Positions 25,838 through 46,797 of a DNA stretch of 64,000 bases are shown here, one piece after another. The notes beneath the pieces were generated by a model. It searched no databases, was not told where the DNA came from, and saw nothing but the letters and a program-made list of their open reading frames with translations. The stretch is from positions 62,001 through 126,000 of the forward strand of contig NZ_JACJPL010000020.1 in NCBI RefSeq assembly GCF_014696065.1, written 5' to 3'. Origin of the DNA: Leptolyngbya sp. FACHB-261. GTDB taxonomy: Bacteria > Cyanobacteriota > Cyanobacteriia > FACHB-261. The position numbers and the translations under genes were made by a program. Each line of letters starts with the position of its first letter. Position 1 is the first letter of the stretch.

Positions 25838-25918
25838 GATTTTTTAGAGGGTTAGGATATCAGAACGAGTCACCGTAGCTCTTATGAGAGCCATTCAAGA
25901 CAGCCGGAGCTGGGTTTG

Positions 25919-25982
25919 CAGGAGATAGAGTTTCAAAACTTTAGAGCCTGAAGCTGCCCAAAGTGGGAACCCCTATCTCCTG
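25919..25982. promoter_or_regulatory. Intergenic stem-loop between receptor and kinase genes
   Basis: CAGGAGATAG (25919-25928) pairs with CTATCTCCTG (25973-25982) around 44 bases that contain a smaller AGTTT/AAACT hairpin. It could attenuate or process the operon transcript between receptor and CheA. No T-tract follows. Confidence 0.4.
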
Positions 25983-25996
25983 ACTTCAGCTTGGTC

Positions 25997-28669: not shown

Positions 28670-28780
28670 AAAATCAACACCTCAAGAATTAGGAGATTAC
28701 AGGGTTTGAGTAGGCTTAGCTACAGATTTCAGTTCTGAATTTCAATCGTGGGTTTTAGCCGTGGCAATTAGAAGTAGCGT

Positions 28781-29272
28781 TTAGGCATGAGATAGGAGGG
28801 GAGAGTGAATAATTGGCTCAGCATCTAGCACTAAAATTTCTTCTGTAGGTTGAGAAATATAGCCTCGGCTATACATCTCTAGATGGGCCGTAGCGGAGCG
28901 CAGGGGTTGAATACAATCTGTGCTGAACCGTGCAACCCCTTTGACTTCTTGAACTAGCAATCCTAATGGGGTCTGCCCAGCGTGAACAATTACCACGCTA
29001 TAGCGCTGATAAGTTTCGAGTGGAGGCAATTGTAGTAGCTGTGCTAGGTCAACAGCCCAGAGAACCCGGCTGCGCCGATTGAGCAGCCCCAAAACGCAGG
29101 GGGGCATATTCGGCATCGGTGTCAGGCGTTGGACGGGGATGACTAGGGCTTCCTGTACCTGCTCCATGCGTAGGACTGCTGGGGTGTTGGGAGCTAGCTG
29201 AAATTTGAGATAGCTTTCACCCAAAGCTCGCTGCGAGCGATTGAGGGCGGGCAGCAACGTGGACTTGTGCAT
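28781..29272 (-). CDS. pixI: CheW-like adaptor protein (PixI-like)
   Basis: The 163-residue protein is one CheW domain, with YLKFQLAPNTPAVLRMEQV, the conserved VLGLLNRRSRVLWAVDLAQLL, and VIVHAGQTPLGLLVQEVKGV. CheW couples the chemoreceptor tip to the CheA regulatory domain at the signalling array. It lies third in the operon, 73 bases after the CheY-like gene and 111 before the receptor gene. Length is normal. Confidence 0.85.
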   Translation of the reverse strand: MHKSTLLPALNRSQRALGESYLKFQLAPNTPAVLRMEQVQEALVIPVQRLTPMPNMPPCVLGLLNRRSRVLWAVDLAQLLQLPPLETYQRYSVVIVHAGQTPLGLLVQEVKGVARFSTDCIQPLRSATAHLEMYSRGYISQPTEEILVLDAEPIIHSPLLSHA

Positions 29273-29345
29273 TGCAAGTTCAAACCTTAGGATGCGAGTC
29301 GGAATTCAAGAGACTGCTTAGAATCAAAATCTTGAAGTTAAAACT

Positions 29346-29708
29346 TTAAACTACGACCGATTGAATGACTCGAACTAATTGATCTCGTGTGAAGGGCTTG
29401 GTGACGTAGGCGTCTGCTCCCTGTTTCATACCCCAAAGACGGTCAATATCCTGGTTTTTAGAAGTGCAAATAACGATGGGAACTTTTTCTGTAAGCGGGT
29501 TTTTCTTCAAGCTCCGACACAACTCAAAACCACTCATGCCTGGCATGACTACATCGGTCACAATGACATCTGGTTTCTTTTCAATGGCTTGAGTCAGAGC
29601 TTCTTGGGCTCCCGCCGCATTGATCACGACGTAGCCACTTTCTCGCAGGTAGTAGCTAATCAGCTCTAACTCTGAAGGAGTATCATCTACAATCAAAACC
29701 GTATTCAT
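29346..29708 (-). CDS. pixH: Single-domain response regulator, CheY-like (PixH-like)
   Basis: The 120 residues are a bare receiver domain: acidic pair in VLIVDDTPSE, phosphoacceptor Asp in VIVTDVVMPGMSG, Thr/Ser in IVICTSKN, and Lys in YVTKPF. It would be phosphorylated by the downstream CheA and relay to pili motors or act as a phosphate sink. It is second in the operon after the PatA-type regulator. A GCTAAA hexamer is repeated three times in the gap upstream (about 29747-29768). Confidence 0.9.
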   Translation of the reverse strand: MNTVLIVDDTPSELELISYYLRESGYVVINAAGAQEALTQAIEKKPDVIVTDVVMPGMSGFELCRSLKKNPLTEKVPIVICTSKNQDIDRLWGMKQGADAYVTKPFTRDQLVRVIQSVVV

Positions 29709-29808
29709 GGTTCACCAACTTTGAACAAATAGAGCCGACAGAGGTGAGGCTAAAGCTAAAGCTAAAGCCAAGGTATGACCCATCGAAAACAATCACCGCA
29801 GCGCGAAA

Positions 29809-30975
29809 CTACCTTGTTGTTTGCACCAGCTTACTGATCACGTCCAGTAAAGTTTTGGCGTCAAACGGCTTGGTAATGTAATCAGAGGCTCCAACTAATC
29901 GGGCGCGTGAACGATCGACTAGTCCATCGCGTCCTGTCAGCATGACAATCGGTGTTTGCCGCAAAGCTGAGGACTGTTTGAGCATTCGGCATAGTTCATA
30001 ACCATCCAGGTCTGGCATCGAGATATCCATCAATACCACTGCTGGTTTTTCACGCATTAAAGGCATGAGTGCCTGCAGCGGATTGGTCAGACTCAACACT
30101 CGGTAGCCCTCCCCTTCTAACATCAGCCGCACCTTACGCTGAATGGTAAGGCTGTCATCAATACAGGCAATTGTCAGTTGCTGGCTCTGATTAGACTGGG
30201 TAAACGGCTCCATCTTAATGATGTCTGCCTGTACCAAGTCCCGCAGAGCAGAAGCGACTCGCAATAGGTCCGCATCCAGTTTTGAGGCAATTTCGTAGAT
30301 ACAGAGCTGAGCATCCAGGGCTTGCAAAGGAGTTTGCGCAGCATCTGGCCCTCGCGCTAGCCGTAACTTGCCTTCTAGTCGCCGTGCAAATTGTTCACGG
30401 GCTAGTAAATGGGGGCGTTGAAAGGGAGAGCTGATATGGGGCTTGAGTTGCTGCCAACCTCGCACTTGGTACGAAAGAGGCAATGCCTCTTGTAAAGGCA
30501 CTGACAATAAAATGGGATCTAAACCAGTGCTTCTTTCAAACAGCAGCGTGGCCTGGGGCAGGGCCATGATATGAATTAACGCTTCGCGAGTGAGCAGATA
30601 GAGCAGCTTTCGTAATTGCGGTAGAGTTAGAATTCCAGCTTGCCAGCTTTGGCACAAGAACTCATAATCTGATGAAATTGTTTCCACCCGAAGTCGCTTA
30701 GCTAACTGAGGCTCGTTCCGTTGCAATATGTAAGCGAGCCGCTCCCGTTGTCCATGTGAACAACTGGCAAAGTGAATGTGCCCGTCTCCTGTGTGAATGC
30801 GCCAGAGAACCGTTTCAGCGTCCGCTTCACGAATAGTCAAACGGCCCGAAACCTTGCGCTGAACAATATTTTGCAGGGCCTCTAAGGGCGAGGAAATGAC
30901 AGTGGGCTGGCGAATTGTAGAGGTAGTCGCAGTGGCTGAGGCTGAGCTAGAGGCTTGATCAGAAGTATTGATCAT
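29809..30975 (-). CDS. pixG: PatA-type response regulator (PixG-like)
   Basis: The 388-residue protein has an N-terminal PATAN/DUF4388 domain (about residues 27-130, starting SPLEALQNIVQRKVSGRLTI), a helical middle, and a C-terminal receiver (about 267-388). The receiver has IACIDDSLTIQ, phosphoacceptor VVLMDISMPDLDG and YITKPFD. PatA-type regulators are cyanobacterial outputs of pilus chemosensory systems; PixG interacts with the pilus extension ATPase in Synechocystis. It is first in the operon, so the promoter should lie in the 470 bases upstream. Confidence 0.9.
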   Translation of the reverse strand: MINTSDQASSSASATATTSTIRQPTVISSPLEALQNIVQRKVSGRLTIREADAETVLWRIHTGDGHIHFASCSHGQRERLAYILQRNEPQLAKRLRVETISSDYEFLCQSWQAGILTLPQLRKLLYLLTREALIHIMALPQATLLFERSTGLDPILLSVPLQEALPLSYQVRGWQQLKPHISSPFQRPHLLAREQFARRLEGKLRLARGPDAAQTPLQALDAQLCIYEIASKLDADLLRVASALRDLVQADIIKMEPFTQSNQSQQLTIACIDDSLTIQRKVRLMLEGEGYRVLSLTNPLQALMPLMREKPAVVLMDISMPDLDGYELCRMLKQSSALRQTPIVMLTGRDGLVDRSRARLVGASDYITKPFDAKTLLDVISKLVQTTR

Positions 30976-31448: not shown

Positions 31449-33125
31449 TTAGCTGCCATTTACTGAAATTAGTCGAGGACGATAATCGGAGCCTAACTTA
31501 TTGGCACAGAACCCTAGTTCTAAGGTTTGGCTAGGTTCAACGGCTTGTCCCCAAGCTAAGGGAGTCACAAGATATCGGCTTCCCTGAGGTTGAAAGTTAC
31601 CATTCCAGGTATTGTTAATGGCCGCTTGATTCATGGCAAAGGTCAATTGCCAGTTACGGGTACTATTGCGGCCCTGGTTTGTGACTTGTAAGTTGGTACA
31701 AAAGCCAGTTTCCCAGTCCGATTGCAAACGGAGCTCAGCTTTGAGGTTTGAGCCAGTTGCCACATTAGACGCCAAATTCAAGTTGGCTCTGGAGCTAGAG
31801 GCAGCTGGAGCCGGAGTAGGAGGACGAGGGGGAGCAGCACTAGCCACAGGCGAGGGACGGGAAACTGAACCCAGGCGCGCACCGGAGGGTAGCAATTTAC
31901 TGAGCAGCCTCTGCTTAGGGACATTGATATTACGCCAATCATCCAGTAGGATGCCGCCAGTATCCACACTGTCTGGGTTCCAGGTCCAATATGTGAAACT
32001 CAGTTTTTTCTGAGCAATATAATCAACTAGTTGCTGTTGCCAAACCCCTTCTTTTGAACTGTCATCTACCTGACGTCCACCGAATTCGCCAATCCAGATC
32101 GGTGCGATGTTTTGGCTGGCGATATAGTGAAAGCCAGTCTCCCAACGAGAAAGCAAATTTCGGGGAAAAGCTGAATCTGAAAACCAGGCGTGGTTGTAAA
32201 CCCCAGGCCCATATTCGTGGGGGGAATAAACCAGCTTGCGGGGCACTGACAAACGCACCGGATAACGTTTGACGCCCTCTAGGTTTCCTCCCTGCCAATG
32301 CACCAGCTTTTGACCAGGCACATTGTTCTCTACGCCTTCGACGAGAATCAGCCAATTTGGATTGATCGCTAAAATCGCATTGCCTGCTCGCTCTGCTGCC
32401 AAACGCCAATCGGTTGCTGGGTCATTTGTCCCCCAACTGGCCCGACCGTGGGGCTCATTTTTGAGGTCTGCACCGATGATATTGGGCTGGTCTTTGTAGC
32501 GGTTCGCCAGCATTTTCCAGGTGTCAATCCAGTCTGCTTCTGTAAAACCATCCCCATACCAAAGTTCTGGAATGCTTTGATTATTAAGCCGATGGCTATC
32601 TAGCAGAATTAACAGCCCTTGTCGCCCAGCCTCCTGAACAATCAGGTCCATCACCTCTAGCGGTGTTTTGCTCTCTAGCTCGCGGTTACTACCAAGATTA
32701 AAGTCAACCCGACTGATCTCCGAAGAACGAAGCGCTTGCACCGAGTAAGGCAACCGGATCACGTTGTAGCCCAGGCTTTTGATCTGGGACAGCATCTCTT
32801 TATAGTCGCGGGCCCAAAGGCCGTGAGGGACTTGAAATTCTGTCTCAAGACCGAACCAGTTGACCCCCCGCAGTAAGACTGGACGCCCCGCAGCATCAAC
32901 AATTTGGGCGCCCCGGGTCGAAAGTGGCGTGCGAATGACAGTCGCTGCATCGGAGAAACCAGTTGACTGCCAGGGGTGCCCGCACAGGCTCAGGGATAAC
33001 AGAGCTAAAGCCAACCCCACAATTTTGAGTCGTTGGGGCAGTTTAGATAGCCTCCAGATAACCCCGTGAAACCAATACGCACAGGGACGCACTAGCCAAA
33101 CCGGTAGTCGGATCAAGGAAGTCAT
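31449..33125 (-). CDS. Secreted GH5 cellulase with C-terminal CBM2-like module
   Basis: About 558 residues from ATG 33125. A membrane/signal helix (RLKIVGLALALLSLSLCG) is followed by the GH5 barrel. The acid/base is Glu224 in ADLKNEPHG and the nucleophile Glu347 in IWIGEFGG; HEYGP is another conserved site. A Pro/Ala linker (about residues 425-450) leads to a C-terminal region with WETGFCTNLQVTNQG and NNTWNGNF, as in CBM2 cellulose-binding modules. It should cut beta-1,4-glucan outside the cell. Bacterial cellulose loci normally include a cellulase (often GH8 BcsZ), and this gene lies just beside the bcs genes. TTG 33164 is also in frame. Confidence 0.85.
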   Translation of the reverse strand: MTSLIRLPVWLVRPCAYWFHGVIWRLSKLPQRLKIVGLALALLSLSLCGHPWQSTGFSDAATVIRTPLSTRGAQIVDAAGRPVLLRGVNWFGLETEFQVPHGLWARDYKEMLSQIKSLGYNVIRLPYSVQALRSSEISRVDFNLGSNRELESKTPLEVMDLIVQEAGRQGLLILLDSHRLNNQSIPELWYGDGFTEADWIDTWKMLANRYKDQPNIIGADLKNEPHGRASWGTNDPATDWRLAAERAGNAILAINPNWLILVEGVENNVPGQKLVHWQGGNLEGVKRYPVRLSVPRKLVYSPHEYGPGVYNHAWFSDSAFPRNLLSRWETGFHYIASQNIAPIWIGEFGGRQVDDSSKEGVWQQQLVDYIAQKKLSFTYWTWNPDSVDTGGILLDDWRNINVPKQRLLSKLLPSGARLGSVSRPSPVASAAPPRPPTPAPAASSSRANLNLASNVATGSNLKAELRLQSDWETGFCTNLQVTNQGRNSTRNWQLTFAMNQAAINNTWNGNFQPQGSRYLVTPLAWGQAVEPSQTLELGFCANKLGSDYRPRLISVNGS

Positions 33126-33367
33126 GGGCACTTGGGGTCTACAACTGTAAGGCAAAAGGAGCAAGGGAAACAGCGGGAGAAACTTGTAGCCTTACAACTC
33201 AAGCCTGTCTGTGCAGACGAGCTACAGGTCAGCCCAACTGGCTATCTGGGCTCAATCGGTCAGTTCAGGCTCGATTGGCAGAGGCTGCAATCGACTTTGT
33301 AGGAAGGTTCCAGCCTCATCCTCCAACTCTTCGAAAGTTCCTGTTGCCATCAGGATTGACATCTTTC

Positions 33368-34095: not shown

Positions 34096-34779
34096 ATGAA
34101 GAAGGGACAACAACTCGGCTTAGGGCGTTGGCTCAGTCTCGGGCTAATGCTACTGGGGCTCTGGGCCTGCTCAGGTCCAGCGACAGAGGTGAACCTCTCT
34201 TTGCAAGTGCAGTCAGACAGACAAACGGGCCAGTTTTTGGTGTCTGGACGAAGCAATTTGCCAGATCAAACTTTAGCTGCGGTTCAAGCTGTCCGCTACT
34301 TGCAGCCCAGCGACGGTATAGGAGAGCGGCCCTACTCGGTGCTGGATCGGCAAGATGTCCGACTCGAACAGGGGCAGTGGCAAGCCCAGTTAAATCTGCG
34401 TCAGGCCAGGGGGGACGATGGCTTGGCCCAAGAGGCCTGGCAAGAAGCGTGGTACCAGGCTGAGCCAATGGCAGTTGACTCCCAAGTTTACTTTCAGCTG
34501 ACCGTTCTCAGCAGTAACCAGCCGCCCGAAGTGGCTCGCAACTTGGGCTACAACTTCAGAAATATTCAGTCTCAGGCTTTGAGCTTCGGTGAGGATGGCG
34601 AGGCTTATCTACAGGCCGAACGCAGCCTGGATGTCCCGGCCGTGCTTGGTTCTACAGCCTCTGCCCTGCCCTTCAGCAACCCCACCCCGAAAGTAGTGAT
34701 TTTGCCTCTTGGTCGTCCTGCCGCCCCAAGTTTGCCCCAGTCCAACGCTCCCCTGCACCAGGCGCAGACTCTGCGCTGA
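34096..34779 (+). CDS. Predicted lipoprotein of unknown function
   Basis: The 227-residue protein has an N-terminal signal and lipobox: LSLGLMLLGLWACSG, with cysteine about residue 25 as the acylation site. The mature part is Gln-rich and beta-prone and ends in a Pro-rich tail. No family is recognised. Its place in the cellulose locus suggests an envelope accessory role, which is inference only. It converges on the coiled-coil membrane protein gene with six bases between stop codons. Confidence 0.6.
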   Translation: MKKGQQLGLGRWLSLGLMLLGLWACSGPATEVNLSLQVQSDRQTGQFLVSGRSNLPDQTLAAVQAVRYLQPSDGIGERPYSVLDRQDVRLEQGQWQAQLNLRQARGDDGLAQEAWQEAWYQAEPMAVDSQVYFQLTVLSSNQPPEVARNLGYNFRNIQSQALSFGEDGEAYLQAERSLDVPAVLGSTASALPFSNPTPKVVILPLGRPAAPSLPQSNAPLHQAQTLR

Positions 34780-34785
34780 TGGGCT

Positions 34786-35553
34786 CTAGCTGCCAGGATC
34801 GCGAATCACCGTATAGCTAGAGGCCAGAGACTGCTGTAGCTTGCTGTCGAGCTGGCGAATCTGCTGAGTTAGCTGCTCCACCTGGCGCTCAAGCCCTTGA
34901 ATAGCTTCGGGGGCAGGTTCGGGGGCTTGAATCTGCAATACCCCTGCCCGTGCTCCGGCCAAGGATTCGTCCCGCAACTTAATCAGATTCTGGGGTGGTA
35001 CTTGAGTCAGACTTAAGTATTGCTGGTTTGGCATAGGCAACGGCTCGGTCCGGCTCGGCGGTAGTTGGGCGGCTTCTGGTCCAGCTATATCAGCAGCATC
35101 TGGCTCTGATGATTCTGCAATTAAGCACTCCAGAATTGCACTGAGCACTGCTTTGAGGTCAGCCCCTTCTGCCTGAACTGACAGAACTTCAGGAATATGA
35201 GTCTGGGCAGTTGTCAAGCTGAGATCGACTAACCAGCGCTCCCGCTCTGCGATTGCGGCTTCTAGCTGCGTGATGCGATTGCGCAGAGCAGTGCGTTGGC
35301 GAGAGCGACGGCGATCTTTCAGCAGCATCACGCCGAACATGCCAACTCCTAAACTGAGGACCAAACCCAAGCTGATATAGGGAACGGCAAAGCTTCTCAG
35401 CTCGCCCCCTAACTGGAAGCTGTCCTCCAGTTCTGCTTTCAGTTGCTTTTGGCCATAGAGGGCTAGGGGGGCGGTAGTCAGGCTAAAACACAAGCCCGAC
35501 AGAATACAGAAGGGGACCAGGACTCTGCCCAGCCGGTTAGAGCGCTGACTCAT
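34786..35553 (-). CDS. Membrane protein with periplasmic loop and C-terminal coiled coil
   Basis: The 255 residues have two hydrophobic helices (about 10-32 and 58-78). They are followed by a heptad-rich region (about 82-110, RITQLEAAIAERERWLVD) and a second coiled coil near the C-terminus (IQGLERQVEQLTQQIRQLDS). No catalytic motif is present. The layout suggests a scaffold anchored in the inner membrane with a cytoplasmic coiled coil. It is divergent from the barrel gene of the cellulose operon and may be controlled from the same intergenic region. Confidence 0.6.
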   Translation of the reverse strand: MSQRSNRLGRVLVPFCILSGLCFSLTTAPLALYGQKQLKAELEDSFQLGGELRSFAVPYISLGLVLSLGVGMFGVMLLKDRRRSRQRTALRNRITQLEAAIAERERWLVDLSLTTAQTHIPEVLSVQAEGADLKAVLSAILECLIAESSEPDAADIAGPEAAQLPPSRTEPLPMPNQQYLSLTQVPPQNLIKLRDESLAGARAGVLQIQAPEPAPEAIQGLERQVEQLTQQIRQLDSKLQQSLASSYTVIRDPGS

Positions 35554-35983: not shown

Positions 35984-37834
35984 ATGACTTTACTCCGTTT
36001 TATTGTCCTGCTAACGCTGACTCGCACAAGCTGGTCATCCTCGCTGCTGGCTGTCCTTGTTCTGTCTGTTCTGTCGTCTCCTGCCCTTGCCGACGCTGGA
36101 TCTGAAGCAGCTGCGCAACCGCTAGAGCCCAAGCTACAGACAGCTCTATCTGTACCGCCGCCTCAACCATTGTCTGCACCTGCTGCCGCCAGCAATAAAG
36201 AGCAATTGCCCGGTTGGCTCGGACAGGGTGGTGCCTCCGTGGACGCTTCAGCCGACCCTAGCCCAGCTCAAGCCGAACTGCCGCCTTTGCCACCTCTGCC
36301 ACCATTGCCGCCATCCCTCAGAAGGCGAGCGGCCCAATCCACTCTGCGGCCCACTGGCACAACACCGCCCTTGACCCCTTTGCCGCCGAGCTTGCGACCG
36401 CGTAGCTCACCGCAGCCAGCTGTGTCAGCAACGCCAGTACAGGTCCGGCAAACGCCGCCGCTACCACCATTGCCACCGACTTTAGCTAGACGGCTTAGGC
36501 TACCTCCTGAGCCAACTGCTCTACCTGATGCGTCCGAGTTAGGCCCGCAACAGTTACCCCCGCAGCTGGCCCCCGAAGCCAACGGCGTTCTAGAGCAAGG
36601 CGTTTTAGAACAGGCGAGTGGCACCTTGGTGAGCATGGCTGCGCAGGGACAGAGCGACCTAGAAACGGCGATCATTCAGCAAACTACCGCAGCCCAAGGC
36701 ACTAGCCTGCGCGGCAACCGACGGGCCTCCGCCCGCGATCTGCGTTTCAATCAGGCTGCCTATCAGCGCCGCAGCCAACCCAACGTTTCCACCTCCGAAC
36801 CGCCACCGGAGGCCTTGCTGAGCAACTCTGGCCTCCAGCCTGCCTTGACTTTGCAGGGCGTTTTACTCAACACCGACGGCGACACCTCAGCCCGTTTGCG
36901 GTTGACCGGGCGCTATCCGCTAGGACGGCAAGTTTTGGTAGGCGCGAGCGTAGATCTGGCCAGTGGTTCGATTTTTGTACCTAACAGCCAGTCAGATGGT
37001 CTGCTGCTCAATGAGCTGTACATAGCCGCATCACCACCCGGCTTGCCAAACTTACGCTTTGCTGTGGGGCAGCTCGACCTGACCTCATACTTTGACCGCA
37101 ACAGCTTCGCGAAGGACGCTGCTACTCACTTTTTCAATCCAGTATTCGCCACGAACCCGGCGATATCTTCGAGTAACACTCTCTCTCGCCCAGCCGCCCT
37201 AGTCAATTGGTCGCCCTCCGATAGTTTGGAGTTCAAGCTGGCAGGCTTCTCCTCAAGGTCCAACCTGGCTGACCTCCAGTTAGACAGCATTGCGGGCGAG
37301 GTAGCGGTTCGGCCCATCCCCAACGCTATCCTGCGCGCAACTTACGTTTCCAGCCGCGATGGCGGTGAGCGCTCGGGCTATGTCGAAGCTGGACGGGGGC
37401 CTGACGGCAATGGTTTGGGCGGCGTGGATCGCATTGGCCGCAACGACCGCGAAGAAGCCTTTGGCATCAATGGCGAATTTTTTATTCCGCAATACAACCT
37501 GGGCTTATTTGCTCGCTACGGTCACTATCGCAACTTGAACCAGGACCAAGAGGCCAACACCTACAGCGTCGGCTTGAATCTGCTGGATCTGTTTTTGCCG
37601 GATGACCGTTTGGGCCTGGCCTACGGACAGCAGTTGAGCGATGACGATCTGCGCCGCGCCGATGATGAGACACCGAGTGTGGTCGAGCTGTTCTACGACT
37701 TCCGGTTAACTCAGGCGCTACGGGCTGGCTTCTCTGTGCAGGTCCTCCAAGACGAAACCGTATTGGGATTCCGAGTGCGGACAGACCTTGATCTGCTGCC
37801 GCGCCGCCGTGCCGCTCTTGATGTTCAGCCTTGA
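35984..37834 (+). CDS. Outer-membrane beta-barrel with Pro-rich N-terminus, OprB-like; BcsC-barrel substitute
   Basis: The 616-residue protein has a signal peptide ending near LSSPALADAG, then a region full of PLPPLPP repeats (about residues 95-190). About 340 residues of alternating beta-strands follow (TARLRLTGRYPL, LVGASVDLASG, LFARYGHYR, TYSVGLNLLDLF). AVGQLDLTSYFDRNSFAKDA and HFFNPVFATNPA resemble carbohydrate-selective porins of the OprB type. It is first in the operon and ends nine bases before the TPR gene. I infer that barrel plus TPR protein replace the two-part BcsC as the cellulose exit pore. Confidence 0.75.
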   Translation: MTLLRFIVLLTLTRTSWSSSLLAVLVLSVLSSPALADAGSEAAAQPLEPKLQTALSVPPPQPLSAPAAASNKEQLPGWLGQGGASVDASADPSPAQAELPPLPPLPPLPPSLRRRAAQSTLRPTGTTPPLTPLPPSLRPRSSPQPAVSATPVQVRQTPPLPPLPPTLARRLRLPPEPTALPDASELGPQQLPPQLAPEANGVLEQGVLEQASGTLVSMAAQGQSDLETAIIQQTTAAQGTSLRGNRRASARDLRFNQAAYQRRSQPNVSTSEPPPEALLSNSGLQPALTLQGVLLNTDGDTSARLRLTGRYPLGRQVLVGASVDLASGSIFVPNSQSDGLLLNELYIAASPPGLPNLRFAVGQLDLTSYFDRNSFAKDAATHFFNPVFATNPAISSSNTLSRPAALVNWSPSDSLEFKLAGFSSRSNLADLQLDSIAGEVAVRPIPNAILRATYVSSRDGGERSGYVEAGRGPDGNGLGGVDRIGRNDREEAFGINGEFFIPQYNLGLFARYGHYRNLNQDQEANTYSVGLNLLDLFLPDDRLGLAYGQQLSDDDLRRADDETPSVVELFYDFRLTQALRAGFSVQVLQDETVLGFRVRTDLDLLPRRRAALDVQP

Positions 37835-37843
37835 GGTGCACTC

Positions 37844-39403
37844 ATGCCACAACGACGCAGAACCCGATTGGGGTTAAGTCTGCTAACCCTCATTTTGAGT
37901 AGCCAATTAGGTCTGAGCCCCGCCGCTTTAGCTCAGGCCAGCTTGCCTATAGAGGTTCGGCAGGGCTACGACCAGATTCAGCGGGGGTTAGTGCTCCAGG
38001 CCATTACCACGCTAGAGCAAGCAGTCCGCCGCTATCCCAATTCCGCAGCAGCTCAACTCGGTTTAGCCATTGCCTACCGGCGGCAGGGTTTGGATGAAAA
38101 GGCGCTCAACGCTTACGAGCGCGTGGTTCAGCTCGACCCCACTAATGAAACAGCCCTACGCGGCGTTGGCCTATTAGGCGCTTACCGTCCAGCCTGGCAG
38201 CAACGCGGCATTCGCGCCCTCAGTGCCCTGTTGGAACGTCTGCCCAACGACCAAAGTGCACGTCGCCAACGGGCAAATCTTTACCGCTTCTCTCGCAACT
38301 GGGCCCAGGCTGCCGCTGACTACGCAATTTTGCTGCGTAGTAATCCAGACGTGACACTGCTGGTGGAGGCTGCTCAGGCTTACAACTGGGGCGGTGGTTA
38401 TCCTCAGGCGCTAGAGCTGTTTGAGCGGGCGCAAGAATTGGGTCAAGTTCCGCGGGGCGATGCCGCTCTGGCCTACGGCAACAGCTTGGGCCGCAGTGGG
38501 CGTTTGCCTGAGGCAACTGAGGTTCTGGTTACCCTGATCCGTCAAGAGCCGGTCAACTCACCGCGTGCCGAAAATGCTGTGGCACTGTTGACCGGGCTTT
38601 ATGCCGACCGCAACGACCAGGAAGGGCTCTTGCGGCTCTACGCACAACTGCTAGAGCGCAGTCCTGACAATGCCAATCTCAACCTGGCCTACGCGGCAAC
38701 TGCTTATTCTTTAAACCGCATCACCCCAGCCCAAGCAGAACAGGTGCTCGATACCTGGCTCACGCGAGCGCCTCAGTCGAACGAGCTGCCAGCCGCGCTC
38801 TACACCCTAGTTGCCCAACTGCCCCCAGACTTGGCCCGCGAAGATCTCTATCAAGCTTTGATTCGTCGTAATCCCAACGATGGTCGCATTGCCGAGCGCT
38901 ATGCCCAAGCGCTTGTAGCTCAAGGCCCGCAACAAGCTCAAGTGCGGGTTGAAGCCCTAGCCAACAACACCCCTAGTGTCACCACCTATCTGCTAGTCGG
39001 TCGGGTATCCCAAGCCCTGGGCAATTACGACCGCGCCGCTGCTGCCTACGACAGCATTTTGGTGCAAAATTCCCGCAATTTGGACGCCCTGCTGGGTTGG
39101 GCTCAGTCTGAGGCGGCACGTCGTAACTTCGAACTGGCCCGGCAGCTCTACAGCGAGGCTCAGGGTATCCTGGCGCAGTCGTCCAACCCGGACCCTGGCC
39201 GTCAGATCCAAATCGACCGTGGCTTGACTGCCGTCCTCCGGGGCGATGGACAGCCACAGGCCGCCCTGAGCCAATTGGAACAACTTCAGAACCAAACTGC
39301 GCTCTCACCGGATCAGCAGGCTGATATTCAGCGCGAAATGCAGGATATCGAGCAGGGTTTTCTGCTGCAACGGGGCTTTCAACCGCCCTGGGAGCGCTAC
39401 TAG
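37844..39403 (+). CDS. Periplasmic TPR protein, equivalent of the BcsC TPR region
   Basis: The 519 residues start with a signal peptide (LGLSLLTLILSSQLGLSPAALAQ). The rest is tandem tetratricopeptide repeats, such as AAQLGLAIAYRRQGLDEKAL, ANLYRFSRNWAQAAADYAIL and VGRVSQALGNYDRAAAAYDS. BcsC of proteobacteria has about 19 such repeats before its barrel. Here the protein ends without a barrel, and the separate barrel gene precedes it. It should span the periplasm and guide the glucan. The gene is followed by bcsB after 26 bases. Confidence 0.8.
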   Translation: MPQRRRTRLGLSLLTLILSSQLGLSPAALAQASLPIEVRQGYDQIQRGLVLQAITTLEQAVRRYPNSAAAQLGLAIAYRRQGLDEKALNAYERVVQLDPTNETALRGVGLLGAYRPAWQQRGIRALSALLERLPNDQSARRQRANLYRFSRNWAQAAADYAILLRSNPDVTLLVEAAQAYNWGGGYPQALELFERAQELGQVPRGDAALAYGNSLGRSGRLPEATEVLVTLIRQEPVNSPRAENAVALLTGLYADRNDQEGLLRLYAQLLERSPDNANLNLAYAATAYSLNRITPAQAEQVLDTWLTRAPQSNELPAALYTLVAQLPPDLAREDLYQALIRRNPNDGRIAERYAQALVAQGPQQAQVRVEALANNTPSVTTYLLVGRVSQALGNYDRAAAAYDSILVQNSRNLDALLGWAQSEAARRNFELARQLYSEAQGILAQSSNPDPGRQIQIDRGLTAVLRGDGQPQAALSQLEQLQNQTALSPDQQADIQREMQDIEQGFLLQRGFQPPWERY

Positions 39404-39429
39404 CCATGACCTATCTGCCCTTCTAGATC

Positions 39430-41934
39430 ATGTTTCACCGATTGCATCGACGCTTGTTTCGTTGGTTGTCTGGTTGGCTGCTCTTGCACCGCCGAGGTTC
39501 TTACTTAGCTGGATGTCTGCTCCTGTGCCTGCCCCTTTGTCTGCTAGTCACTGGCTTGACGGCGGTGCGAGTGACCGCCCAAAGTTTTGACCAGAGCTTG
39601 GAACGTCAAGAAAACCAGGTCATTCGTGAGTTCGCCCTGCCCCGTGCGCCACGCCGCGCCCCGGTTGTTCGTCAGCGCCCGCCTGCACCTGCACCTGCGC
39701 CACGTTTAGCACCCGCTCCCCGTCCAGCGGCTCCCCGTCCAGCAGCACCCCGCGCAACAGCCCCAGCTGAACCAGAATCTACAGCTCAGGCAGAGCGACC
39801 TGTCTCTAAGCCAGCCCCAGCTCAGCCTGCGGCCCAGCCCAGTTTGCGCCATGAGTTGTTATTCAATCGCAGCCCTGTTGTTGGCAATCGTCTGCGCTTG
39901 CAGGGACAACTGGCTGAGAGTCGTCTGGCTTTTTCTCGCCCTGCCAGTTGGGAGGTGCAGTCGGTGCAAGCGATCATTCGCTTTCGCCATTCCCCTAACT
40001 TGGTCGCACCCCAGTCCAACTTAACGGTGCGAGTCAACGAAACTAGCTTGGGCAGTGTGCCCCTCAGCCAACGTGACCTCAATATTGGCGAGATGCGGGT
40101 ACCGGTGCCAGTCAATCTGTTGCAGGACTACAACGAGGTTGCTGTAGTTGCCCAACAGCGCACTGCTGGCGACTGCTCTGACCTTAATGACCCTGCCCTC
40201 TGGACCGAGGTGCTACCAGATTCGCGTCTGGTCTTTCAGTTTCGGCCTAAACCGATGGCCCTAGACTTTAGTCAATATCCCCGTCCGTTCTTCGACCCGC
40301 TGAGTCTGGAGACAACCCGGATTAGCTATCTACTGCCTAGCCAGGTGGATCCAGACTGGCTGACAGCAGCGGCCCGGCTCAGCGCCCACTTTGGGCGGCT
40401 GGCACAATTCCGGCGTTTAGATCAAGGCTTAATTACTTCGCTTAGTGCTCAAGAGCGTTTGCGAGATTGGGGCAGCATTGCGATCATCGGCACCCCAGCC
40501 AGCCAGCCCTCGCTCAATAGCCTGGATCTGCCCTTCGCCATCCGGGGCGGCCAGCTTGTTGATGGTGCGGGACGGGTGTTACCGCCAGATGTCGGTGTAC
40601 TGATGGCTGTGACTGGAGGCCCGGAACAGGCCCTACCCGTCCTGGTTGCTAGCGGCAATGGCGCTGAAGGCGTTGCTAAGGCGGTACAGGCACTCGTGCA
40701 AGCACCGGATCGGGCAATTGCCGTGGGTCAGGCAGTGTTGGTGGATCAACTAGAAGCCGTGCCAAGTCCTTCGGGCCAAACCTGGCCTGGGTACCTGCCT
40801 ACAGGAGAGCGCTTTGGCCTCAGCGACTTGGGCGTGACTCAAGATGTCACCTTGCGCGGTATGTCGGCGCCCGCCCTTAATCTAGACTTCCGAGCGCTGC
40901 CCAGTGAGGCTTTTGACTCGCGCCGCAATACCATGACCCTGAGCTACAGCCATAGCACGCAGGTGGATCCGCGCAACTCCTCGGTGGAAGTGCTGCTCGA
41001 CGGCGTAACTCTGGCCTCGGCCCCGCTAGAAGTTAACCGGGCGGAGCGCCGCACGCTCAATGTGCCACTGCCTGGTAATTCGATCAAACCGGACTCGCAG
41101 TTGCAGGTCGCCTTTCGCCTCAGCCCTCAGAACCGCAACGCCTGCGGCGCCAGTGCCGATCAACAGCTTTGGGGCACCATCCATGCTGGCGATACCAACT
41201 TTCAGCTCAACCGCTATGAATCCTTCGAGCTGCCAGATCTAAAGTTACTGCGCTACGGCTTTCCCTTTGCTGCACCGCAGGACCTCTCTAGTACCGCGCT
41301 GGTGCTACCCGATAATCCCTCGCCCATCGAAATCGGGCTGATGTTGAGTAGCGCTGAGCGCTTGGGCCGTCTCAGCCAAGCCGACTCGGTGCAGCTCCTG
41401 GCTGTGACCCTCAGCAAGCTCAACCGCCAAGCCCAACTGGACCACCATCTAATCGCCTTGGGCCGTCGGGAACGCTTTCCGTTGCCAGAGGTGCTTGAGG
41501 CCAAAGCCGAGGGGTTGCGCTTGGACAGCGTGCTGGGGCGCTTGCGCGGCCAAACTCGCTTGCAGGCTCTACCCGATAGCCAGGGTTTGATCACCGAAAC
41601 CCTCTCACCCTGGAACAACGAACGGGCAGTGCTGGCCCTCACTGCACAGACCGATGACGGCCTGCGTCAGATTCAAGACTTGTTGCGGCAAGACCAGCGC
41701 TTCTTCCAGGTCCAGGGCGATACCGTGTTGCTGAATGCCGATGCCTCGCTCAAGGTACTGACTCGTTTGCCGCCTCGCCGCATCGAGAAGCTGAATGGCA
41801 TTCAGCGCTGGACCCACTTTCTCGGTCAGAACTGGTACCTGGTGCCGTTTATCACGGTTTTGAGTGCGCTGCTGCTCTTTGGCCTCGCACAGCTCTACAT
41901 CCAACGAACAGCACAACGACGGGAGTCTGTGTAA
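39430..41934 (+). CDS. bcsB: Cellulose synthase subunit B (periplasmic, membrane-anchored)
   Basis: The 834-residue protein has an N-terminal hydrophobic helix, then a low-complexity Ala/Pro linker (about residues 75-115). Repeated carbohydrate-binding and flavodoxin-like modules follow: WEVQSVQAIIRFRHSPN, VRVNETSLGSVPLS, YSHSTQVDPRNSSVEVLLDG and GTIHAGDTNFQL. It ends with a single membrane helix WYLVPFITVLSALLLFGLA. BcsB wraps the emerging glucan in the periplasm, and its C-terminal helix is required for BcsA activity. bcsA begins 16 bases downstream, so the two are cotranslated. Confidence 0.9.
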   Translation: MFHRLHRRLFRWLSGWLLLHRRGSYLAGCLLLCLPLCLLVTGLTAVRVTAQSFDQSLERQENQVIREFALPRAPRRAPVVRQRPPAPAPAPRLAPAPRPAAPRPAAPRATAPAEPESTAQAERPVSKPAPAQPAAQPSLRHELLFNRSPVVGNRLRLQGQLAESRLAFSRPASWEVQSVQAIIRFRHSPNLVAPQSNLTVRVNETSLGSVPLSQRDLNIGEMRVPVPVNLLQDYNEVAVVAQQRTAGDCSDLNDPALWTEVLPDSRLVFQFRPKPMALDFSQYPRPFFDPLSLETTRISYLLPSQVDPDWLTAAARLSAHFGRLAQFRRLDQGLITSLSAQERLRDWGSIAIIGTPASQPSLNSLDLPFAIRGGQLVDGAGRVLPPDVGVLMAVTGGPEQALPVLVASGNGAEGVAKAVQALVQAPDRAIAVGQAVLVDQLEAVPSPSGQTWPGYLPTGERFGLSDLGVTQDVTLRGMSAPALNLDFRALPSEAFDSRRNTMTLSYSHSTQVDPRNSSVEVLLDGVTLASAPLEVNRAERRTLNVPLPGNSIKPDSQLQVAFRLSPQNRNACGASADQQLWGTIHAGDTNFQLNRYESFELPDLKLLRYGFPFAAPQDLSSTALVLPDNPSPIEIGLMLSSAERLGRLSQADSVQLLAVTLSKLNRQAQLDHHLIALGRRERFPLPEVLEAKAEGLRLDSVLGRLRGQTRLQALPDSQGLITETLSPWNNERAVLALTAQTDDGLRQIQDLLRQDQRFFQVQGDTVLLNADASLKVLTRLPPRRIEKLNGIQRWTHFLGQNWYLVPFITVLSALLLFGLAQLYIQRTAQRRESV

Positions 41935-41950
41935 GGCATGGTCAAGCGTC

Positions 41951-44551
41951 ATGGTTAAAAGAGTAGAAGGCAGTGTCGTCGAGACAGACGCTACAGCAGC
42001 ACTACCTGAGAGACGAGAAGGTACGTTCAATCGGTTTCCCTTTAACCGCTTGAGCCAGGGGCAGGTCGTGCTGCTGCTCCTGGTTTTGACCCTGCTCAAT
42101 ATCCCTCTGATTGTGGCCTCAGTGGAGGTGTGGCAGCAGGGCTTGATTGGACTGGGGCTCACCTTGCTGGGCCTGGTGTTAGGGCGGTGGGATCGGCTGC
42201 GGGGCTTGCTGGTATGGCTGAGCTTGCTGGTCACCTTTCGTTATCTGTACTACCGCACGGCCTACACGCTCAACTTAGATAGCGGTTGGTTGAACGCGGT
42301 CTCCAGCGTTCTGCTCTATGGCGCCGAGTTGTACGCTGTGCTCACGCTGGTGCTGGGCTACTTTCAAACGACTTGCTTGCTAGAGCGCCAACCCGTCCCC
42401 CTGCCCAAAGACCCCAAGGCGCTGCCCTGGGTTGATGTTTACATTCCGACCTACAACGAAGACGTCACGATCGTGCGCGAGACTGCGCTGGGGGCAACCA
42501 GGATTGATTACGCCCACAAACAGGTCTACATCCTCGACGATGGTCGTCCAGACCGCTACCCCGTAGGTGACTCCCGGCGCTTGCTAGCCCAGCAACGACG
42601 GGAACTGTTACGGGCCATGTGTAGTGAATTGGGTTGTACCTTACTCACGCGAGGCGACAATGACCACGCCAAAGCAGGCAACATCAATCAAGCCCTAACT
42701 CGCACCACTGGCGAACTGATTCTGATCCTCGATTGCGACCACATTCCAGTGCGTAACATCTTGAAGGAAACCGTCGGTTTTTTCCGAGACCGGTTGGTAT
42801 TCATGGTGCAAACGCCGCACTGGTTCTATAACCCCGATCCGTTTGAGCGCAACTTAATTGCTGCTGGGCAAGTGCCCCCAGCTAATGAACTCTTTTACAA
42901 AACCATTCAACGGGGCAATGACTTCTGGAACGCAGCCTTCTTCTGCGGTTCAGCAGCAGTAGTACGGCGAGATCTGCTACTCGAAGTGGGCGGCATTGCT
43001 GTAGAAACAGTCACCGAAGATTGCCATACCTCGCTACGCCTGCATAGCCGAGGTTACAAGTCGGTGTACTACGGCAAAACCCTAATCGCCGGGCTTGCCC
43101 CTGATAGTTTTGCGGCCTTGATTGGGCAACAGGTGCGCTGGGCACGGGGCATGGCGCAAATTTTGCGACTGGAAAATCCTCTGTTCAAAGAAGGGCTGAG
43201 TTTGCCCCAGCGCCTCTGCTACTTTGGCGCTACGTTTCACTTTTTCTATGGCTTGCCGCGCTTGGTTTATGCCTTGGCGCCAGTGGTATTTTTGCTGTTT
43301 GCCATCAACCCAGTTAAGGGCTTGGGTTTGGAAACTGCTGCCTTTGCTGTGCCGCACTTGCTACTGTCTTCCTTTGCCAATTTCTCTGCCTATAAAAAGG
43401 TTCGCTTCTCGTTTTGGAGCGAGGTCTATGAGTTTGCCTTGTCTTTCTACACCGCTTGGGCCACGACGCTAGCGTTGCTCAACCCCAAAGCCGGTTCGTT
43501 TAACGTCACTGACAAGGGGCGCTCGATTCAAGAACGGGTATTTGACTGGCGCTCGGCCCGCCCACTGCTGGCGGTGACAGGTCTGCTGCTGCTCTCGGTG
43601 CTGGCCATTCCAGTCTGGCTGTTATTTGAACCCGAAGCTTGGCAAGCGGTGTTGCTGAACGCCATCTGGTGTTTTTACAACCTGGTGCTGGTCGTCTGTG
43701 CGTTGTTAGTCAGCCTGGAGCAACCGCAACTGCGCCGCTCTCACCGCCTCGACCGACAGCTGAATGTGCTGGTGCATGGCTCAGGCACCTCTTGGATCGG
43801 TCGCACCCTGAATATCAGCAAGCGGGGAGCCCTGGTGCAGCTGGAGGGCTGGCAGGTGTTGCCACCGCAAGTGGAACTGGAGATCTTCGGCGACTACGAC
43901 GCCTGCGTTAGTCTCAATGCCACGGTGGTTCGGGTCGAACCGCAGGCTGACGACAAGACCTACGTGTCGTTTGATTTCGCCCCTTACTTGATGCAGCAGC
44001 AACGGGACCAGCTCTCGCTGGTGCTGTTCAGTGATGTGCGTCAGTGGTCTTCCCAGGACCATCACAATCTGGACCGCCCTCTACGCTCGCTCTGGATGAT
44101 CGCCAGTACTCTGGTGCGTACCGTGCGCAACCCACAACCGGCTCGCAGTCGTCGTCTGCGCTTGCAAATTGCAGCAGTGGCTCAGTTGGACTGGGGAGAC
44201 GGCACTACCAGCTTGACCAAACTAACTGCAATTGACCTGGCAGGCGTGCGGCTAGAAGTGAGTGCCGAGATTGCTCAGCAACTGGAGCTACGCTCTCGCA
44301 CGCGTCCGGTCCTTAACCTGAGCATTCAGCGCAGTGCAGATACTCCGGAGCTAGACCGCTTTATCGTCAGCGTTCCAGTGCGCCAATTTCACCCACCGGG
44401 ACCAACGGGAGCCAGTAGATCTAATAAGCTACGGGAAACTACCAAGGTAGAACTGGAATTTCCAGTGCAGCTTCAGCCCCAGCAAGAGAGCCGTTTGCAA
44501 GCTGTTTTGTACCAACTGGACCAGAACTACAGGCCTCAAGTTGTGCAGTAG
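41951..44551 (+). CDS. bcsA: Cellulose synthase catalytic subunit with PilZ domain
   Basis: The 866 residues have about eight membrane helices around a GT2 domain. Catalytic residues are visible: Asp196-Asp197 (LDDG), DCD 261-263, TED 355-357 and QQVRW 393-397. The gating loop FNVTDK is at 517-522. The PilZ domain has RxxxR (Arg595, Arg599 in RRSHR) and NISKRG 621-626, so c-di-GMP should release the loop and activate synthesis from UDP-glucose. A second, degenerate PilZ-like segment lies near 734-775 (RRLRLQIAAV, IDLAGVRLEV). I start at ATG 41951; upstream frame overlaps bcsB. Confidence 0.95.
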   Translation: MVKRVEGSVVETDATAALPERREGTFNRFPFNRLSQGQVVLLLLVLTLLNIPLIVASVEVWQQGLIGLGLTLLGLVLGRWDRLRGLLVWLSLLVTFRYLYYRTAYTLNLDSGWLNAVSSVLLYGAELYAVLTLVLGYFQTTCLLERQPVPLPKDPKALPWVDVYIPTYNEDVTIVRETALGATRIDYAHKQVYILDDGRPDRYPVGDSRRLLAQQRRELLRAMCSELGCTLLTRGDNDHAKAGNINQALTRTTGELILILDCDHIPVRNILKETVGFFRDRLVFMVQTPHWFYNPDPFERNLIAAGQVPPANELFYKTIQRGNDFWNAAFFCGSAAVVRRDLLLEVGGIAVETVTEDCHTSLRLHSRGYKSVYYGKTLIAGLAPDSFAALIGQQVRWARGMAQILRLENPLFKEGLSLPQRLCYFGATFHFFYGLPRLVYALAPVVFLLFAINPVKGLGLETAAFAVPHLLLSSFANFSAYKKVRFSFWSEVYEFALSFYTAWATTLALLNPKAGSFNVTDKGRSIQERVFDWRSARPLLAVTGLLLLSVLAIPVWLLFEPEAWQAVLLNAIWCFYNLVLVVCALLVSLEQPQLRRSHRLDRQLNVLVHGSGTSWIGRTLNISKRGALVQLEGWQVLPPQVELEIFGDYDACVSLNATVVRVEPQADDKTYVSFDFAPYLMQQQRDQLSLVLFSDVRQWSSQDHHNLDRPLRSLWMIASTLVRTVRNPQPARSRRLRLQIAAVAQLDWGDGTTSLTKLTAIDLAGVRLEVSAEIAQQLELRSRTRPVLNLSIQRSADTPELDRFIVSVPVRQFHPPGPTGASRSNKLRETTKVELEFPVQLQPQQESRLQAVLYQLDQNYRPQVVQ

Positions 44552-44587: not shown

Positions 44588-44606
44588 AGGGCCTAGAAAA
44601 GGCCCT
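44588..44606. terminator. Short hairpin between convergent bcsA and RTX genes
   Basis: AGGGCCT (44588-44594) pairs with AGGCCCT (44600-44606) around five bases. It overlaps the minus-strand stop codon. It is small but well placed to end both transcripts. Confidence 0.4.
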
Positions 44607-46272
44607 AGACAAAAGCCCAGCCGTTCTCGCCTATCTGTAACCCTGCTGCACTCTGGATTACTGCAATCAGCTCAGTCTGACCTGCACCGGTATAGAAAAG
44701 GCCGGTGCCATTCTCTAGACCGGCGGGAACTGCCCCTAACCGATAATCTGAGGCTGCACCGTGTAACTGGATTGTGTCTTCAAAGGGGTTAAAGCCGACA
44801 ATGCGGGCATAATCACCCAAGCCAGTGCTCTGGGAATTGCCGTCGTTGTAGAAGGCAGCAGCATTGGTTCCCAATACAAAGCGGTCTGCACCGCCACCGC
44901 CGATCAGCACGTCGCGCTCATTCACACCCAAGACACTGGGCGCTGTACCCGTTAGCAGATCATTACCGGCACCGCCGACTAAACGGTCATCGCCAGCGCC
45001 ACCAGTGAGCAGGTCATTGCCAGCACCGCCATTGAGGACGTTATTGAGGGCATTGCCTGTGAGCCGGTTGTTCAAATCATTGCCGTTACCGACTGTGGCA
45101 GAGCCAACCAGGGCTAGATTCTCCAAGTTGGGTCGCAGGGTTGCGTTGACAAAAGCCCGAACCGTGTCAATGCCTGCGCCCAGTCCCTCGTTAGCGATAT
45201 CCCCGGCACTATCGATGATGTAGGTGTCGTTGCCAACCCCGCCGAGCAGTTGGTCATTGCCCAAACCGCCGTTGAGGAAATCATTACCAGCAATGCCCAC
45301 AAGCCGGTCATTGCCTGCTTCGCCCATCAAGCGATTATTGCCAGCATCGCCAAGCAAAACATCATTGCCCGCGCTGCCAATCTCCTGTACTGAAGTCCGT
45401 GCGGTCATAGAGGAGCCAAGTGCGGTATTAGCGTCGAGCTTGACATTGGTCCCCCCAATCGTCACTTGCTGACTAATGGGTCCGCTCAAGGTTCCGCCTG
45501 AAAAGGTTACCGTATAAGCGCCGCTCGGCAGTTGCATTTGATAACCACCTGCGGTCATCGTGGTTCCAGTAAACGTACCGGCAGTTCCGGTCGCCTGCAC
45601 TCGGATCTGGCCTAAACCTTCACCGTTGTCGTAGAAGTTATCTCGATCAGCGTCCTTAAACACGACGCCCAATAACCAGGAATTGCCAAAGTTGGAACGA
45701 TTACCAAAATCTTGGGTAATCACTAGGGGGCCAAGCCGATTGTTGGTACCGTTCGTCGTGGTAATGCCAATGCCAACTTCCCGGAAGTTGCGGCTCATGA
45801 TATTGGCGCGATGTCCTGCGTTCAGCTGTATGCCTGTGCTGGTATTACCCCAGTCAATTGCTAAGCCGGCATGACCTTGTAGGACTGAAGTTGCATAAGC
45901 GTAGACATTTTCACCAAGGTTAGACCAGTTGCCATAACCGTTATTGATCGCACGACCACTCAGGGGCGCTTCACCGGCTACTTGGTGAGTTTGTGTATTT
46001 TGGCTAATCATTGCCTGGTTATGAGCATGGGCACCACTGTATAGCGCTCCTGACCAGGCTAAAGGCTGAGCTGGAGTCAAGGCGCTCCATTGTGAAGCTA
46101 AGACAGAGGCGTTGACCTTGAATTGAAGTAAGGCTGAGTTAATTGCCGGATCAAGCGAATGCAAAGGATTGACGCTATTGACCAAGGCGTTCAATCCTGC
46201 AGTTGGATTAATCCGCATCTGATTGATCCGCTCAAGCATCTCTTGCTCAAGCCCGCTCGGATTGAAAACCAT
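44605..46272 (-). CDS. Secreted CAP/SCP-domain protein with RTX calcium-binding repeats
   Basis: From ATG 46272, with GGGGGA upstream, the protein has 555 residues. A CAP (SCP/PR-1) domain occupies about 5-195, with LERINQMRINPTAGLNALV, AHAHNQAMISQNT, NLGENVYAY and HRANIMSRNFREVGIG. A linker with a CNA-B/SdrD-like beta segment follows (VVFKDADRDNFYDNGEG). RTX nonapeptide repeats lie near 305-345 and 400-440 (NDQLLGGVGND, GGAGNDLLTGG). RTX proteins leave by type I secretion and fold on calcium outside. It converges on bcsA, so a matrix or surface role is plausible. The frame is open further upstream but without domain content. Confidence 0.85.
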   Translation of the reverse strand: MVFNPSGLEQEMLERINQMRINPTAGLNALVNSVNPLHSLDPAINSALLQFKVNASVLASQWSALTPAQPLAWSGALYSGAHAHNQAMISQNTQTHQVAGEAPLSGRAINNGYGNWSNLGENVYAYATSVLQGHAGLAIDWGNTSTGIQLNAGHRANIMSRNFREVGIGITTTNGTNNRLGPLVITQDFGNRSNFGNSWLLGVVFKDADRDNFYDNGEGLGQIRVQATGTAGTFTGTTMTAGGYQMQLPSGAYTVTFSGGTLSGPISQQVTIGGTNVKLDANTALGSSMTARTSVQEIGSAGNDVLLGDAGNNRLMGEAGNDRLVGIAGNDFLNGGLGNDQLLGGVGNDTYIIDSAGDIANEGLGAGIDTVRAFVNATLRPNLENLALVGSATVGNGNDLNNRLTGNALNNVLNGGAGNDLLTGGAGDDRLVGGAGNDLLTGTAPSVLGVNERDVLIGGGGADRFVLGTNAAAFYNDGNSQSTGLGDYARIVGFNPFEDTIQLHGAASDYRLGAVPAGLENGTGLFYTGAGQTELIAVIQSAAGLQIGENGWAFV

Positions 46273-46797
46273 AATTGTCCCCCCGTAATCAGCAATTCTT
46301 TCGTTCTTGATTGCTAATGAGCAGCTTAACGGGGACTGAGAAGCAATTATAAGAGTGTTTATCCGTAAAACGACGACATCTTTTTTGGTTGATCTCTGTA
46401 GGTTTACAGAAATTTTATAGAGGGTTTTGTCTAGGAAGCTTGGGCTGACAAGGTTACCCACTTTTGAACTGTTTTATGCTTCTTTTCTGATCCGAATAAT
46501 ATGAATTTCTAATGAGTTGAGCTTAAGCCGTAGTCTTACTGATAGGCGTTAGTAGTCCTACTGAGTCTTGGTTTAGCTTTAGCAATATTTCCCTTAAGTT
46601 CTCAGTTTAAATCTCAGGTTGAGGGATAATTAGTCTCCTCTCTTCCCGTATTAGCACTGAGCTAACACTTAAACTCCTGCTTAACAAACTGATAATACTG
46701 ACAGGTTGCCTTGCCAAGCCCTCTCGGTGCGCAAGTCTGAACCGAGAGGGTGTTGAAACGGCCAAGGTTGCGACTTGCCTGGGTGCAGAAGTTGTAG
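46273..46797. other. Intergenic region with one hairpin
   Basis: About 525 bases between two minus-strand genes. CCCTCTCGGT (46719-46728) pairs with ACCGAGAGGG (46741-46750) around 12 bases, shortly after the peroxiredoxin stop codon, and probably ends that transcript. The rest is A+T-rich and likely holds the promoter of the CAP/RTX gene. Confidence 0.5.
46719..46750 (-). terminator. 10-bp hairpin downstream of peroxiredoxin gene
   Basis: Perfect ten-base stem, 12-base loop, about 50 bases beyond the PrxQ stop codon. No clear U-tract, so mechanism is uncertain. Confidence 0.5.

Follow-up and report, generated by a model that had tools for sequence, protein, structure and literature searches.

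The window analysed here, a 64,000-nucleotide stretch of the Leptolyngbya sp. FACHB-261 genome, contains a bcs operon of four forward-strand genes, i.e. those for an outer-membrane barrel protein (35984–37834), a periplasmic TPR protein (37844–39403), BcsB (39430–41934) and BcsA (41951–44551). They are arranged head to tail in the same direction and are separated by gaps of 9, 26 and 16 bp. The barrel protein (616 aa; assigned from its ORF, Pfam and an AlphaFold2 model) consists of a signal peptide, a Pro-rich low-complexity linker and a predicted OprB-like 16-strand barrel, and it scores 31 bits against the Pfam family OprB (PF04966; cut-off 22.9). The TPR protein (519 aa) is BcsC-TPR/AlgK-like according to the TPR families that it matches, which are many in Pfam and reach 3e-24; no lipobox cysteine was found in its signal region. 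BcsB matches PF03170 over nearly its full length (1.8e-95) and carries a C-terminal hydrophobic segment, as expected for its membrane anchor. BcsA combines GT2 and PilZ domains and scores 727.6 bits against CelA (TIGR03030; equivalog cut-off 699.1) in the Pfam/NCBIfam comparison. It contains the motifs DCD, TED and QQVRW as well as the c-di-GMP motifs RRSHR and NISKRG. Its start is most likely the ATG at 41951; a start at the GTG at 41864 would give an overlap with bcsB. The initial annotation had described a cellulose operon with BcsB, a tightly spaced four-gene order and full catalytic and c-di-GMP motifs in BcsA, and all of this is confirmed.

A second copy of the barrel–TPR–BcsB–BcsA set is present on another contig of the same genome (locus L056). 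Directly downstream of bcsA in the window, and convergent with it, lies a reverse-strand gene (44605–46461) whose product combines a CAP domain with RTX calcium-binding repeats.

Conservation of the operon and its neighbours

For comparison, loci around BcsB genes were taken from other cyanobacterial genomes, with BcsB as the sole selection criterion. This survey of gene order, a step already suggested in the initial annotation, recovers the same barrel and TPR genes upstream of BcsB and in the same direction at 54 of the 57 other loci with enough upstream sequence. The TPR gene lacks an adjacent barrel gene at three loci (L068, L106 and L107), although the barrel is present at the other bcs copy in each of these genomes, and at none of the 57 loci are both genes missing together. 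A search based on the barrel itself yielded 80 named loci, which all carry cyanobacterial titles and come mostly from filamentous genera (e.g. Nostoc, Calothrix, Scytonema, Tolypothrix, Leptolyngbya and Stenomitos). Across 76 loci, the median overlap between the barrel and TPR genes is 4 bp, and this gene layout suggests that they are translationally coupled.

Near full-length BcsB was found in 17 of 386 genomes sampled from the phylum. At E below 1e-100, the barrel family is present in 16 of the 386, every one of which is among the 17 BcsB genomes, and the next-best matches in the sample, at about 1e-9 or weaker, belong to other OprB-like proteins. The corresponding Fisher p is about 2e-27, without phylogenetic correction. 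G439, the sole BcsB genome without the barrel, falls in a different class of the phylum; its locus (L112) has two bcsB-like genes in tandem and no barrel of the bcs-linked family. The barrel tree codiverges with those of the TPR protein (r = 0.85), BcsB (0.81) and BcsA (0.74), which is partly accounted for by shared species history. The fused BcsC barrel (PF05420) reaches its cut-off in two of the 386 genomes, neither of which is among the 16 with the barrel; within these 16, G434 shows a partial PF05420 match below the cut-off.

Some small-genome cyanobacteria (loci L121–L124 and L126–L129) contain a weakly BcsB-like gene that adjoins a gene of 763–771 aa, and no barrel of the bcs-linked family was found within the fetched stretch of these loci. 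Of these neighbours, the one that was scanned, in L122, encodes an MshEN-domain GT2 synthase. This gene pair is perhaps another kind of synthase-dependent system.

Many loci also contain a gene of about 400–550 aa between the TPR gene and bcsB. All four of those scanned encode GH8 cellulases (PF01270, BcsZ), and a GH8 match directly follows the TPR gene in 53 barrel-centred loci. The usual full order is therefore barrel–TPR–bcsZ–bcsB–bcsA, which mirrors the bcsA–bcsB–bcsZ–bcsC order of E. coli. GH8 has been lost from the window genome, with no match in the operon or anywhere else in it. A reverse-strand gene at 31449–33164 encodes a GH5 cellulase with a CBM2 domain (PF00150, 6e-52; PF00553, 1e-19), a possible stand-in for the lost enzyme; the same GH5–CBM2 family also lies nearby in relatives that have retained GH8. 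A GH8-for-GH5 swap has been reported in Acidisarcina (PMC9693552), and in E. coli an unrelated, off-the-shelf cellulase can take over from BcsZ (PMC11379886). By analogy, the neighbouring GH5–CBM2 enzyme may replace GH8 BcsZ in the window genome.

Two further conserved genes lie upstream of the barrel gene. One (34096–34779, forward strand) encodes a lipoprotein with a predicted beta-sandwich and adjoins the barrel gene in most loci, as judged from locus comparison and a structure model; Foldseek gave no match to this model with E <= 0.001, only weak beta-sandwich matches. The other, next to it (34786–35553, reverse strand), encodes a membrane-anchored coiled-coil protein recognized by locus comparison. 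The pair (34096–35553) is inverted with respect to relatives, where the lipoprotein gene is usually divergent from the barrel gene. The lipoprotein may itself belong to the exporter. Both proteins could modify the polymer, the identity of which is not readable from sequence, and the operon might then produce another beta-glucan or a modified cellulose. We consider such a product improbable because BcsA scores above the cellulose-synthase equivalog cut-off and because BcsB and GH8 or GH5–CBM2 cellulases are present.

A chemosensory operon (22856–30975, reverse strand) is located a few kilobases from the cellulose operon and encodes DUF4388-REC, CheY, CheW, an MCP with GAF domains and a CheA hybrid. 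Judged by gene sizes, 15 other loci have the same three-gene chemosensory pattern close to their bcs operon, with the domains checked in the window and L073 only.

Fold and origin of the outer-membrane barrel

AlphaFold2 with 63 relatives predicts a barrel of 16 strands (mean pLDDT 77, pTM 0.77, strands mostly near 90), which settles at the level of prediction the strand number that the initial annotation had left to modelling. The barrel domain corresponds to 36842–37792 on the forward strand (strands at residues 39–355 of the modelled stretch 36728–37831). Its best structural match is the P. putida OprB (4gey; Z 24.3, 293 residues at 3.4 A), and the next best has a Z of 21.5. Two sets of structural matches, with 50 listed per set, contain no BcsC or AlgE barrel; distant similarity is still possible. 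At E up to 0.1, Pfam OprB is matched by 54 of the 63 family members, whereas neither BCSC_C (PF05420) nor Alginate_exp (PF13372) is matched by any of them; three of the five full-length relatives scanned are below the OprB cut-off or have no match. In hhalign, the barrel profile aligns with the OprBs of the window genome at a probability of 97%, and the value for the five BcsC barrels compared is 2.8%. A sequence search of solved structures with this profile gave no meaningful match.

The low-complexity Pro-rich segment ahead of the barrel ranges from 74 to 859 residues across the family, with a median of 14% Pro over 132 members. It contains 19% Pro over 241 residues in the window protein, where the proline-rich repeats and OprB features noted in the initial annotation both prove to be real. 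The loop between strands 5 and 6 (37076–37186, forward strand; DLTSYFDRNSFAKD...FFNPVF) is long and nearly invariant, and its invariant alignment columns and position in the model make it a candidate constriction loop. Other OprBs read by eye from the same genome have a common SLH-like N-terminus, and no SLH domain was found in the window barrel or in five full-length relatives. The initial annotation would have been undermined by a barrel that folds as an ordinary OprB. The fold is indeed OprB-like, but the absence of SLH and the family's own invariant loop set the protein apart, and it was found only in genomes with full-length BcsB, which would not be expected of an ordinary porin. In brief, the barrel belongs to an OprB-like yet distinct family.

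The OprB fold normally serves small sugars, which counts against a role in polymer export. The barrel might be read as a co-regulated sugar porin for the uptake of cello-oligosaccharides released by the neighbouring GH8/GH5 cellulases, while cellulose exits otherwise (e.g. by the TolC and HlyD-adaptor route put forward for XcsAB) or is retained between the two membranes. The fold, the Pfam assignment and the cellulases nearby are all consistent with this reading, as is a cellulose layer reported between the peptidoglycan and the outer membrane of Synechococcus PCC 7002 (PMC12430437). However, the barrel and TPR genes overlap, the barrel co-occurs strictly with BcsB, the TPR protein would be left without an outer-membrane partner, and the window genome keeps two barrel copies yet no GH8. 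Sugar uptake is thus an unlikely function, and we prefer to regard the barrel as an exporter.

The initial annotation spoke of a split BcsC, and this wording is not borne out: no sequence relation between this barrel and that of BcsC is detectable, and fission is therefore not the best reading. Its other suggestion, the independent recruitment of a porin, is probably right, given an OprB-type barrel by Pfam, structure match and profile, and no fused BcsC. A true fission of an ancestral fused BcsC, with a barrel that has diverged beyond recognition, would concern the origin and not the function of the protein. It would agree with the TPR length and 16-strand count, both of which match BcsC, with the exact mirroring of the E. 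coli operon, and with the two BcsC fragments known in Acidisarcina, though these are annotated as a pseudogene (PMC9693552). We nevertheless hold fission to be unlikely and have discarded it as the leading view. The barrel profiles fit OprB and not BcsC, and the barrel-then-TPR gene order reverses the TPR-then-barrel domain order of BcsC, which simple fission does not give. The protein is probably a different barrel that does the job of BcsC.

TPR protein and proposed export route

TPR relatives are mostly about 700–835 aa long, and a length of about 770 aa is close to that of the TPR region of the E. coli BcsC. The window copy (519 aa) lacks middle repeats and keeps both ends. Because the ends are kept while the middle varies, the sequences suggest a protein with two docking ends and a spacer. 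The TPR profile has a probability of 99% against BcsC TPRs; TPRs match each other generically, and this value is hence given no weight.

The C-terminal end carries a conserved tag, found by motif scan as RGFQPPWERY at 39371–39400 (forward strand) in the window. The form RGFQPxWE occurs at the C-terminus of 122 of 132 TPR homologues, and most of the others have variants. With variants included, a scan of 1,830 ORFs located the tag in 133, all of them TPR proteins. The TPR proteins of L106 and L107, i.e. bcs copies without a barrel gene, have lost the RGFQPxWERY tag. In each of G117 and G098, the tag is altered in the bcs copy that has no barrel next to it, and the sister copy keeps both barrel and tag. 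This change is probably one evolutionary event, both genomes being of the same genus, and L068 keeps a near-normal tag despite having no adjacent barrel. The tag is possibly the dock for the barrel.

We are fairly confident that the locus is a complete c-di-GMP-regulated operon for cellulose synthesis and export, in which the outer-membrane step is performed by two proteins, the TPR protein and the OprB-like barrel. As known for their families, BcsA would polymerize the glucan and extrude it through the inner membrane, and BcsB would receive the chain. In the E. coli BcsC, the first (N-terminal) TPR binds BcsB, the last TPR precedes the barrel, and the barrel has 16 strands (PMC11379886); the same strand number predicted here supports a two-protein exporter. 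In the proposed route, (i) the N-terminal repeats of the TPR protein may dock on BcsB; (ii) its solenoid may guide the chain across the periplasm; (iii) its C-terminal tag may dock on the 16-strand barrel; and (iv) the barrel would let the cellulose chain out, where both the exporting function and the transport direction are inferred. Tentatively, the Pro-rich segment that precedes the barrel is interpreted as a flexible tether or as a spacer through the peptidoglycan. Misdirected chains would be cleared by a cellulase, i.e. GH8 in many relatives and probably the neighbouring GH5–CBM2 enzyme here.

The barrel–TPR pair would then be the functional equal of BcsC, with an architecture like that of AlgK and AlgE. 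We also lean towards the broader view that cellulose crosses the outer membrane of many filamentous cyanobacteria by a second route of independent evolutionary origin, in which an OprB-type porin was turned into an exporter and recruited by a TPR adaptor via its C-terminal tag. Two apparently unrelated barrels that face the same transport problem would offer a natural comparison, and with the barrel on its own gene the export step becomes testable through single-gene deletion. Separate parts, possibly joined by a short tag, may also suit the engineering of cellulose secretion in phototrophs. A complete BcsA–BcsB system with a dedicated outer-membrane pair occurs in many filamentous genera.

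Comparison with known systems

Cyanobacterial cellulose operons have been described as typically lacking BcsB (PMC12430437). The BcsB domain has been recorded in a very restricted number of cyanobacterial strains, with no BcsC_C domain (PMC4594306), and BcsC-like barrels have been assigned to five strains and linked to heterocysts (PMC4365693). The barrel–TPR arrangement is not described in the openly licensed literature searched, where work on split BcsC proved to be unrelated; a prior mention elsewhere is possible. Within that scope, the two-protein outer-membrane pair of a cyanobacterial bcs operon appears to be new; the operon itself is of the bcs kind and the barrel of the OprB kind.

The locus shares with the E. 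coli type bcsABZC system the BcsA, BcsB and often GH8 partners, a long periplasmic TPR solenoid encoded together with bcsA and bcsB, and a 16-strand outer-membrane barrel. By contrast, the TPR and barrel regions form two ORFs and not one chain in the window and at 54 other BcsB-centred loci, the barrel is of OprB and not BCSC_C type, and the gene order is reversed. OprB carbohydrate porins, including the SLH-OprBs of the same genome, have the same fold and Pfam family, but the barrel studied here has a Pro-rich linker in place of SLH, its own invariant loop and a tie to the bcs operon.

The cyanobacterial XcsA–XcsB(HlyD)–TolC system of type IV operons also has a PilZ-type cellulose synthase and an endoglucanase nearby. 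Here, BcsB and the barrel–TPR pair take the place of the HlyD-like XcsB and TolC: BcsB adjoins bcsA, and no HlyD match was found among the four operon genes. The alginate exporter AlgK and AlgE is similar in dividing the labour between a periplasmic repeat protein and a separate outer-membrane barrel (PMC9734138). The cyanobacterial pair differs from it in the cellulose-type synthase, a TPR protein without a lipobox cysteine, the OprB-type barrel and, in relatives, a longer repeat region.
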